Below, piece after piece: positions 8,398-39,774 of a stretch of DNA of 64,000 nucleotides (position 1 is its first letter; every line of letters begins with the position of its first letter). The stretch lies in contig JANYEB010000037.1 in NCBI GenBank assembly GCA_025363355.1, positions 47,056-111,055 on the forward strand. Reading direction: 5' to 3'. The notes under the pieces were generated by a model that searched no databases, had not been told where the DNA came from, and saw nothing but the letters and a program-made list of their open reading frames with translations. The DNA is from Chitinophagaceae bacterium (GTDB taxonomy: Bacteria; Bacteroidota; Bacteroidia; Chitinophagales; Chitinophagaceae). The position numbers and the translations under genes were made by a program.

Positions 8398-8655
8398 ATG
8401 AATCTTTTTGTTACTGGACTTTTGAATGATATGGACGATGTTGATTTAAAAGAAATGTTTGAGTTGTATGGAGAAGTAAAATCTGCCAAGGTTATTATGG
8501 ATAAGTTTACTAATAAAACACGTGGTTTTGGTTTTGTAGATATGCCTAATGACGAAGAAGCAAAAGCTACAATCAACCTGTTGAATGGCGTTAAATTAGG
8601 CAGAAAACAAATGTCTGTTCAAATGGCAGAGCCACAAACAAATTCTAGACGCTAG
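8398..8655 (+). CDS. Single-RRM RNA-binding protein
   Basis: RNP2 LFVTGL and RNP1-like TRGFGFVDM motifs, 85 aa. Confidence 0.92.
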   Translation: MNLFVTGLLNDMDDVDLKEMFELYGEVKSAKVIMDKFTNKTRGFGFVDMPNDEEAKATINLLNGVKLGRKQMSVQMAEPQTNSRR

Positions 8656-36864: not shown

Positions 36865-38421
36865 TTAGTTATAATTTCTTGTTTTGCTAGCTTGATATTT
36901 CTCGTAAATGATTACTGCCATTGGTTTTTCAAACACTTTTCCTTCAACCCAAGAAATAATATCTAAGTACGCAAAGGCTCTGGTTTCGAACCTGTTTTTT
37001 TCGAGGTATTTGATTTTATCTAAAAGCTTTTCAAACTCTGGCTTCAATTTTCTTGAGGAAATATTGAAAGTGTCTCTTAAAAACTTAAAAATGGCTTCTT
37101 CTACAACGGTTAAATTTTTCATTTTAGCCATAAAACGATACACCGATTTTGTTAAGGATTCTATAATGGCATCATTTCCTAATTCATAATGCGACATTAA
37201 ATGTAGCAAACGAGCATAGCATTGCAAATCGTAACGCAGATCAGCATTTGAGTCAATTATCAAATTTAGATAATCTATTGCCTTATCGTACTCTTGATTG
37301 CCGAAATATAAGGAAGCGATTTTATAGTTAAACACAACAATTCTGTGTCTATCTACAAACAATGCATAATCTTTTAATTCTTCAATTAAATGAGGAATCA
37401 TTTTAACGCCTTCTGCAAAAGTACCCTTCATTAAATGCTGATTTACTTTAGCACTGTTGATGTAGATAGAAGTGTGAACTCTAAAATTATCGTACTGATT
37501 AGCCGTGTCAGTTTTAGCAAACTCTTCAAACTTGTGTAGAATTAGTTCAAATTTAGAAAAGTATCTTAAATCAAACATTGCATTTAAAAGGTTATGCATT
37601 CCTTTTACATAATGTCCTGTTTCAACAGTTATCATCAATCTATCTTCCTCAAACAGTTTCATCCATTTTTGACTGTATCTGTAATACATCAAAAAATCTT
37701 GTCGTATAAATGCATACCAGCAATAGCTTTGATAGAAATATAGTTTTTCATAAAAGCCATTTACAACATTCTCATTTGGAGGAACATTGCTTTTGAAATA
37801 GGCTTTAATATCTTTCTCATCTTCTTCATTTCTGGCGTGTCCATATTGCACATACCAACGATAAAGCATTAATGTAAGATTTGATAACCGTGTAACTCTA
37901 TCAATATGACCACTAATTTCTAAGGCTTCTTTTGTAAGAATTTCAGTTCTATCAATCGAGCTTCTAGTAATATGTAAAGTTTCAATTTTTTTCTCAAGAG
38001 AAATCACTTGAGCCATTGAATTAAACTTTTGATTCGCTCTTGCTAATTCTTTTGCTTTTTCAAGAATTTTTAGAGCTTGAAGTTTCAATCCTTTATTATA
38101 CAAAAGTCTAGCAAAGTCTAGGCTTTCACTAAGCTGTAAGTCAATATTATCAGTAGTTTTAAGTAATCTTAAAGAAGAAAGAATTTGTTTGTATAAATGT
38201 GATTTTAAATTAGCTAGTTGAGTTTTTTGTATAGCTGGAAGCTTTTTTAACAGTATTTTCTCATCATATTCCTCCAATTTATCCAAAACATCAAATAATT
38301 GAATAATTTTTAAATCATCATTATTAGAATTTCTTTTGATATATAGCTTAAAATGTCTCTTTTCAGCCTTCTGAAGTGACTTTATTAGTTGAAATAATAT
38401 GTCGTTTGAGCGGTTGGACAT
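36865..38421 (-). CDS. Uncharacterised helical-repeat (TPR-like) protein, paralog B (start likely MSNRSND at 38421)
   Basis: N-terminus LIKSLQKAEKRHFKLYIKRN... matches paralog A at 22493..23956. Confidence 0.72.
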   Translation of the reverse strand: MSNRSNDILFQLIKSLQKAEKRHFKLYIKRNSNNDDLKIIQLFDVLDKLEEYDEKILLKKLPAIQKTQLANLKSHLYKQILSSLRLLKTTDNIDLQLSESLDFARLLYNKGLKLQALKILEKAKELARANQKFNSMAQVISLEKKIETLHITRSSIDRTEILTKEALEISGHIDRVTRLSNLTLMLYRWYVQYGHARNEEDEKDIKAYFKSNVPPNENVVNGFYEKLYFYQSYCWYAFIRQDFLMYYRYSQKWMKLFEEDRLMITVETGHYVKGMHNLLNAMFDLRYFSKFELILHKFEEFAKTDTANQYDNFRVHTSIYINSAKVNQHLMKGTFAEGVKMIPHLIEELKDYALFVDRHRIVVFNYKIASLYFGNQEYDKAIDYLNLIIDSNADLRYDLQCYARLLHLMSHYELGNDAIIESLTKSVYRFMAKMKNLTVVEEAIFKFLRDTFNISSRKLKPEFEKLLDKIKYLEKNRFETRAFAYLDIISWVEGKVFEKPMAVIIYEKYQASKTRNYN

Positions 38422-38533
38422 CGTAATTTTTTTTTTGTGAAACTCAATAGAATCAATGATTTTCACAAAATTTTAAAAGTTTTGATATAGTATATTAACC
38501 AAATAATTGTTTTAAGAACTATTTGGTTAATAC

Positions 38534-38541
38534 TATTTTTG
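38534..38541 (+). promoter_or_regulatory. -7 box TATTTTTG for candidate small RNA / micro-ORF transcript
   Basis: Exact TAnnTTTG on the strand carrying the downstream terminator. Confidence 0.45.
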
Positions 38542-38545
38542 ACTT

Positions 38546-38694
38546 ATCAAATTAAAAATGGCAAAGCAATCGGTGAAAGCAAATCGTTAAAGGCCGAGAA
38601 AACAAAAAACAAGTAGTTCTAAAGAACTAGAACTTTTTCATATGGCAAGCAATCGTTAGAGGCTGCTCTGTTTCTACAGAGGAGCCCTTTTTTT
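38546..38694 (+). ncRNA. Candidate small transcript with two related micro-ORFs (MAKQSVKANR*, MASNR*) and hairpins
   Basis: Between two minus-strand genes: -7 box, micro-ORFs 38558..38590 and 38642..38659, inverted repeat TAGTTCT-AA-AGAACTA, terminator 38660..38694. Confidence 0.5.
38660..38694 (+). terminator. Terminator of the candidate small transcript
   Basis: GGCTGCTCTGT-TTCT-ACAGAGGAGCC followed by CTTTTTTT. Confidence 0.85.
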
Positions 38695-38745
38695 GTTTAG
38701 GCGTTGCAAAGCAATAGGATTTATATGTCATTAACAAATATTTAA

Positions 38746-39774
38746 CTATTTATTTTTAATATTTTTCTTCAGTTTCAATAAACTAAAATCATCTTGACCA
38801 ACTTCTTTAACAATATTATTTACTAAATGCCCAAGATTTTCAATCTCCATTTCAACAATGTCTCCTTCTTTTAACCATTGAACCTGATAATCAGGATTGT
38901 TTAGCTTACCTGTTCCATTTAATTCTAAAAAGCAACCAGTACCACAAGTTCCACTACCTATTACATCACCAGGATGAATATTTACACCATAGCTACAACG
39001 CTCTAAAATTTCTGCAAATGTCCAATCCATATCACTTACACTTCCTTCACTTACTTGCACCCCATTTACTTTACAAGTCATTTTTAGGTTCCAAGATTTA
39101 CCAGTATGACTTTCTTTACAAGCAACTTCATAAGGTTCAAGTTCATCAAGAGTAACTAACATTGGACCAATAACTGTTGAAAAATCTTTGCCTTTTGCTG
39201 GTCCAAGATTCAAAAGCATTTCTTCCATTTGCAAGGTTCTTGCACTCATATCATTCATAATCATCAAACCACCAATATAATTATCTGCATCGGCAGCTTT
39301 TATATTTCTTCCAGATTTACAAACAACAATTGCAGCTTCTAATTCAAAATCTAATTTATCAAAATGATCTGGCATACATTTAATTTCTCCAGGTCCTTGA
39401 ATACTATTATGATTGGTGAAATAAAATATTGGATATTGATCAAACTCAGGAATCATAGGCACTCCACGATTTCTACGAGCAGCTGCAACGTGCTGACGAA
39501 AAGCATATCCATCTCTACAACTTGTAGGAAAAAGAATGGGTGCTAACACTTTTGCACTAGCAAATTCAACTGTTGAATTGTTTGATAATTTACCTTCTTT
39601 AATAGCATCGTTAACTTGCTGTGCAATAGGAAAAAAATCATCCCAATAATGCAAAAACATTGACATAGAACTCGGCAGTTCTGGATGCATTGCATCAGCA
39701 TTATATAAATTGCCGTTGTATAAAAAAGCTAATTGATCGTTTCCTTCTTTTGTTAGATATGTAACTAATTTCAT
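38746..39774 (-). CDS. Fumarylacetoacetate hydrolase family protein
   Basis: LDFELEAAIVVCKSGRNIKAADADNYIGGLMIMNDMSART, KGKDFSTVIGPMLVT; -7 box TACATTTG (minus) at 39794..39801. Confidence 0.93.
   Translation of the reverse strand: MKLVTYLTKEGNDQLAFLYNGNLYNADAMHPELPSSMSMFLHYWDDFFPIAQQVNDAIKEGKLSNNSTVEFASAKVLAPILFPTSCRDGYAFRQHVAAARRNRGVPMIPEFDQYPIFYFTNHNSIQGPGEIKCMPDHFDKLDFELEAAIVVCKSGRNIKAADADNYIGGLMIMNDMSARTLQMEEMLLNLGPAKGKDFSTVIGPMLVTLDELEPYEVACKESHTGKSWNLKMTCKVNGVQVSEGSVSDMDWTFAEILERCSYGVNIHPGDVIGSGTCGTGCFLELNGTGKLNNPDYQVQWLKEGDIVEMEIENLGHLVNNIVKEVGQDDFSLLKLKKNIKNK

Follow-up and report, generated by a model that had tools for sequence, protein, structure and literature searches.

What is encoded by the compact unit on the + strand at 38530-38700, which has minus-strand genes on both sides? 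The unit lies in a 64,000-nucleotide stretch of a Chitinophagaceae genome (contig JANYEB010000037.1; the whole stretch is called the window). A preliminary description reported a promoter, two related micro-ORFs, an inverted repeat and a terminator, and all of these elements are present in the sequence. It left three readings: a small RNA, a dual-function RNA encoding micropeptides, or an attenuator whose target was lost. We found by sequence comparison that the window copy is not a singleton but belongs to a multicopy family of predicted Chitinophagaceae small RNAs (sRNAs).

A predicted small RNA gene between two minus-strand genes

The left neighbour of the unit is a gene for a TPR-solenoid protein (36865..38421, - strand), divergent from the sRNA gene. 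The right neighbour is a fumarylacetoacetate-hydrolase-family gene (38746-39774, - strand; Pfam PF01557). We placed the predicted sRNA gene at 38547..38694 (+ strand; ~145 nt) from its promoter, conserved body and covarying terminator. Both ends are predictions: the start was set ~6-7 nt past the -7 box and the end within the T-run. The -7 box is TATTTTTG (38534-38541, + strand), and AATTGTTTTAAG (38505-38516, + strand) reads as the counterpart of a -33-like element, AAGTTGTTTTGA, found in the family. Between the TPR gene and the sRNA promoter is a nearly perfect, operator-like inverted repeat of 19 bp, TATTAACCAAATAATTGTT/AAGAACTATTTGGTTAATA (38493..38532); among the congeners compared, its arms are present only in the window's species.

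The predicted transcript has four parts, all on the + strand. The 5' domain (38558..38595), a split or duplicated copy of the core according to the family comparison, coincides with the first micro-ORF (ATGGCAAAGCAATCGGTGAAAGCAAATCGTTAA, 38558-38590). A small mid hairpin (38614..38629) is formed by the inverted repeat TAGTTCT/AGAACTA, with two further A's in its loop. It differs between genera, and hairpins of at least 5 bp occur at this position in 38% of copies compared with 20% of shuffles. The recognition core TTTTTCATATGGCAAGCAATCGTTAGAGG (38634..38662), a predicted anti-start-codon seed, encloses the second micro-ORF (ATGGCAAGCAATCGTTAG, 38642-38659). The intrinsic terminator, supported by covariation, is GGCTGCTCTG-TTTCTA-CAGAGGAGCC plus a T-run (38661..38694; hairpin 38661-38686, T-run 38688-38694). 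The predicted fold of the RNA is better than that of dinucleotide shuffles (z -2.3, 4/200); such predictions leave the core only partly unpaired. The sequence supports the earlier suggestion of a small RNA of ~150 nt, presumably transcribed from its own promoter and ending at an intrinsic terminator.

An RNA family in the Chitinophagaceae

The unit is conserved in relatives. The 3' module of the 221-bp unit was found in 26 of 61 relatives' genomes, often in several copies and in tandem, with a best E of 1e-22 outside the window's own genus. A covariance model, R1, matched 83 of 120 Chitinophagaceae genomes (best family-genome match, CM E about 1e-16), with 1-10 copies each, the numbers in incomplete MAGs being lower bounds. 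These copies occurred in tandem arrays and also in 3'UTRs. R1 matched none of 92 genomes from other families of the same order, and nothing outside the Chitinophagaceae in a 199-genome sample of the phylum. The exact 24-nt core CATATGGCAAGCAATCGTTAGAGG is present in at least 119 stretches of public genomes. The matches listed are mostly Chitinophagaceae or unclassified Bacteroidota MAGs, and a few are MAGs labelled Flavobacterium, Pedobacter or Sphingobacteriales. Carriers of the RNA include type strains, from Niabella, Hydrotalea flava and Sediminibacterium.

We found that the core is practically invariant across the family and that the stem and all upstream sequence are variable. The 3' half of the unit consists of the core, UUUUUCAUAUGGCAAGCAAUCGUUAGAGG, conserved almost to the letter, and then the covarying terminator; the order of the module is U-tract, CAUAURGCAAGCAAUCGUUAGAGG, terminator. 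Compensatory changes were present at 7 of the 8 modelled pairs of the terminator stem. There were 124 double-changed cells, compared with 30 in shuffles, and the covariation score was 0.562, whereas shuffles gave 0.253 and slid controls no more than 0.215. The 5' domain has the form CATAYRGCARGCAATCGTTAGA-n-GCAAnTCGTYAGAGGC, that is, one to two extra copies of the core, and was present in 55 of 111 standalone copies (≤3 edits) and in 1 of 555 shuffled sequences. In the copies linked to the TPR gene, a TAnnTTTG-like box was present in 65/65 (36 in shuffles) and a -33-like element in 49/65 (12 in shuffles). At two loci of the G009 genus (L326 and L346, near 1501), the core motif lies in the loop of a hairpin that resembles a terminator, next to a divergent TPR gene.

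The earlier statement that the unit matches no known class of non-coding RNA held. Rfam gave no match in the window at the gathering threshold, and permissive scans of the window unit and six loci gave only noise (best hit PyrR, 23.2 bits against a threshold of 54). A search of the open-access literature for the core sequence or for sRNAs of Chitinophagaceae found nothing relevant. The comparisons identify a real family of predicted small RNAs, absent from Rfam and from the papers searched.

Genomic settings and the TPR gene

The copies have two conserved homes. Of 209 copies, 81 are directly upstream of, and divergent from, an ortholog of the window's TPR protein gene, and another 36 come after an ECF sigma gene in divergent orientation. 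At the latter, the module is the 3'UTR of a gene for a small lipoprotein that is rich in Ala, Thr, Lys and Asp and distantly related to the PG1828 family. This second home is seen at L002 (1240-1446, + strand; 528-1094, - strand), L018, L019 and L024, and hints at envelope-stress control of the same seed. At other loci (L242, L254, L256, L257, L246 and L321) the module ends outer-membrane protein, TonB-receptor-like, tRNA-Cys and nagB-like transcripts, the gene names having been assigned by eye. At these loci the module is a portable 3'-end cassette.

The linkage to the TPR gene is strict. Of the best 55 matches to the TPR protein, 46 have a listed sRNA match, divergent at a distance of 200-619 nt. 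We fetched the leaders of the other nine: eight contain the element, sometimes degenerate, and the ninth is at a contig end. The sRNA element is therefore divergent from the TPR ortholog in 54 of 54 evaluable cases. It was found in 0 of 20 leaders of more distant homologs (a paralog) from the same bacterial family. This arrangement does not fit the proposed attenuator with a lost target, as family members hold one position, in divergent orientation to one and the same gene, and share no downstream gene. A cis-acting attenuator or riboswitch was also considered and rejected: the TPR-linked class has no shared same-strand downstream gene, and the next gene in the window is on the opposite strand.

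Over its full length the TPR protein matches NCBIfam NF058569, the ribose-utilisation family of BT_2802, which we take to be RusR, though distantly (148 bits against a curated cut-off of 550). Its AF2 model is an all-helical solenoid. A search by sequence found no solved structure, and Foldseek returned only generic TPR solenoids, including Rap, NprR and MalT. RusR is the regulator of the ribose PUL BT2803-2809 (PMC12596196). By analogy with this distant relative, the TPR protein may regulate the adjacent sRNA gene. The intergenic region between the two genes contains conserved DNA boxes. One, TTTTGRCATAATAAAA, is present in TPR-linked intergenic regions such as those of L099 and L056, and the TPR leader contains an inverted repeat, AAGGGTTT..ACCCTT, followed by a conserved CTGGCATTGAGTTTCA-like stretch.

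Predicted targets, proposed mechanism and alternatives

Generic searches for targets of the core were negative. Duplex energies showed no significant excess over shuffled cores, either at all gene starts of the fetched loci taken together or at the leader of the TPR gene. Sites complementary to the core with at most 3 mismatches of 21, sought in 31 genomes, were nearly all further module copies or isolated single sites. One such site, an 18/21 core complement in the leader of an efflux-adaptor-like gene in the window's genus (L241 of G003, 974-994; MYKKILTISLFALASLTACK...), marks a possible further target. We do not claim the coding region of the ECF sigma gene as a target: complementarity was strong in some species, and a synonymous-codon test was mixed overall. 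Short core complements were in excess only in G009, and its 5'UTR sites near fba, ureA, sucB and gltD were set aside since they do not recur in relatives.

In Bacteroides thetaiotaomicron, FopS sRNAs act at the start codon of susC to repress its translation (PMC11697453). A test of SusC genes was chosen after the generic tests had failed and was prompted by FopS; it is one of several target hypotheses. We used 67 SusC (TIGR04056) starts, from the best-scoring genes listed in ten sRNA-bearing genomes. We set the starts with a heuristic based on signal peptides, which probably misplaced a few of them.

We found that the core is complementary to SusC start regions. The mean duplex energy of the core with the 67 starts (-30..+30) was -13.96 kcal/mol, compared with -10.91±0.73 for shuffled cores, as calculated with RNAduplex, which takes no account of accessibility. 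None of 120 dinucleotide-shuffled cores matched this mean. About half of the SusC starts reached -14 kcal/mol, and 25 were at or below -16, compared with 3.8±2.5 for shuffled cores. Control genes with signal peptides had a mean of -10.62 (Mann-Whitney p 1e-8 compared with SusC), and the effect was lost with reversed, complemented and reverse-complemented cores. The complementarity profile was flat upstream and peaked at -18..+6, on the AUG. Three 7-mers that are core complements (ACGATTG, CGATTGC and TGCTTGC) were 13-15-fold enriched at SusC starts over other genes. In the window's own genome, one SusC start (L389) was at -18.6 kcal/mol.

Complementarity also tracked the presence of the RNA, because a family genome in which no R1 copy was found (G123) did not show it. 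Its 20 SusC starts, taken from 800 kb of sampled stretches, had a mean of -10.4, and 1 of 20 was at or below -16 (Mann-Whitney p 4e-4 and Fisher 0.005 compared with sRNA-bearing genomes); G123 is the sole sRNA-lacking control genome.

Based on these results we consider it probable that the family consists of multicopy, trans-acting sRNAs that repress SusC translation in the Chitinophagaceae. The sRNA would be transcribed from its own promoter or, at some loci, as the 3' end of an mRNA; it would carry one to three copies of the recognition sequence and end in the intrinsic terminator. The core (CAUAUGGCAAGCAAUCGUU...) is predicted to be antisense to the start region of mRNAs for SusC-like TonB-dependent receptors (typically ..CUUGC..AU-AUGA..), with the CAU of the core facing the target start codon. 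Pairing there would most likely block translation initiation, and production of the sRNAs would therefore lower many nutrient-uptake receptors at once. The adjacent TPR protein might control the sRNA here, and an ECF sigma factor might do so at other loci. An RRM protein may help pairing. Among 41 genomes, none had an Hfq above cut-off and 35 had RRM proteins. The window encodes one of the three RRM proteins of its genome (85 aa; 8398-8655, + strand), a candidate sRNA-binding protein in this Hfq-less lineage. Transcription, pairing in the cell and repression are all inferred here from sequence.

The predicted sRNAs resemble known systems to different extents. FopS comprises 14 paralogous sRNAs in B. 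thetaiotaomicron, each with a conserved single-stranded seed and then an intrinsic terminator, and the members are mostly standalone, with one derived from a 3'UTR (PMC11697453, PMC7366714). Like FopS/GibS, the Chitinophagaceae sRNAs are multicopy, have a conserved segment directly before the terminator, and are mostly standalone with some 3'UTR-derived copies. They also share with FopS a complementarity to susC translation starts and a host phylum that lacks Hfq and has RRM proteins. However, we detected no relation in sequence. The permissive Rfam scans, which covered the window unit plus six loci, gave no FopS/GibS match, from a copy of Rfam that may hold no FopS model, and R1 found nothing outside the family. 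The Chitinophagaceae core also differs in lying directly before the terminator and being repeated in the 5' domain, and the sRNA in being linked to the TPR gene and the ECF-sigma/lipoprotein locus. FopS has been studied by experiment, whereas the Chitinophagaceae sRNA is known here as a sequence. The best explanation is that the latter works like FopS, by analogy of architecture and predicted target class; we do not claim membership in FopS. Several copies of a pairing motif per molecule are also found in LhrC1-7. These are multicopy sRNAs of Listeria monocytogenes (PMC11697453). They resemble the present RNAs in copy number and motif repetition and differ in motif, hosts and structure. CsrB titrates CsrA. 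CsrB and RsmZ likewise repeat a motif within one RNA, but the Chitinophagaceae motif is complementary to a class of targets, and a protein partner is only hypothetical here.

Our results might also indicate that the RNA is a sponge, in which the repeated motif binds and titrates a conserved protein, either an RRM protein or the product of the linked TPR gene, and pairing with mRNA is secondary or absent. This is consistent with the up to three motif copies in one RNA, the motif's place in a hairpin loop at L326 and L346, the strict TPR linkage and the presence of RRM proteins. We consider it unlikely, as it leaves unexplained a SusC-start complementarity that tracks the RNA. It is less likely still that the module is a cis-acting 3'-end element for termination or stability with no function in trans. 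Every copy is at a 3' end with a terminator behind it, and some are in mRNA 3'UTRs; however, an invariant 24-nt sequence is more than termination requires, many copies are short standalone transcripts that have their own promoters and lie in arrays, and the SusC-start complementarity would have no place.

A dual-function RNA encoding the micropeptides MAKQSVKANR and MASNR now seems very improbable. An ATG and in-frame stop are present in 208 of 237 sampled copies, but the sample was picked largely by exact core match. We reject the micropeptide reading because a whole genus without the ATG keeps the RNA element (copies in the G009 genus read CATATAGCAAGCAATCG). The in-frame stop is absent from L194, L199 and L200. 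The 5' copies of other genera mostly have no ATG (e.g., CATACAGC), and the 5' reading frame differs even within the window's own genus (L003 compared with the window). Nucleotides flanking the ORF (UUUUUCAU and AGAGG) are about as conserved as those within. The kinship of the two micro-ORFs, described earlier as a 13-14 nt deletion, proved to be a family-wide trait, the 5' stretch being a split or duplicated core. The micro-ORFs are by-products of the RNA element, not genes. A functionless mobile repeat is just as improbable. The element is multicopy and forms tandem arrays, but its fixed TPR synteny (54/54) and covarying stem contradict a dispersed repeat without conserved structure. The exact core was not found in viral contigs, and flanks diverge around the invariant core.

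Returning to the proposed repression of SusC translation, we suggest tentatively, as something rather short of a firm expectation, that Bacteroidota evolved a SusC-silencing multicopy sRNA network at least twice independently. The Chitinophagaceae version would use a portable 3' module of seed and terminator, placed behind many promoters and mRNAs, and a dedicated BT_2802-like TPR partner whose gene is arranged back to back with those of the sRNAs. Control of SusC receptors by sRNAs may be a general Bacteroidota strategy that works without Hfq and has perhaps arisen more than once, and the family offers a second lineage for testing which proteins assist Bacteroidota sRNAs. For the Chitinophagaceae, many of which degrade polysaccharides in soil and water, these RNAs are a first candidate for a global regulator that controls nutrient uptake after transcription; their seed is defined, their target class is predicted, a partner gene is linked to them, and some carriers can be cultured.
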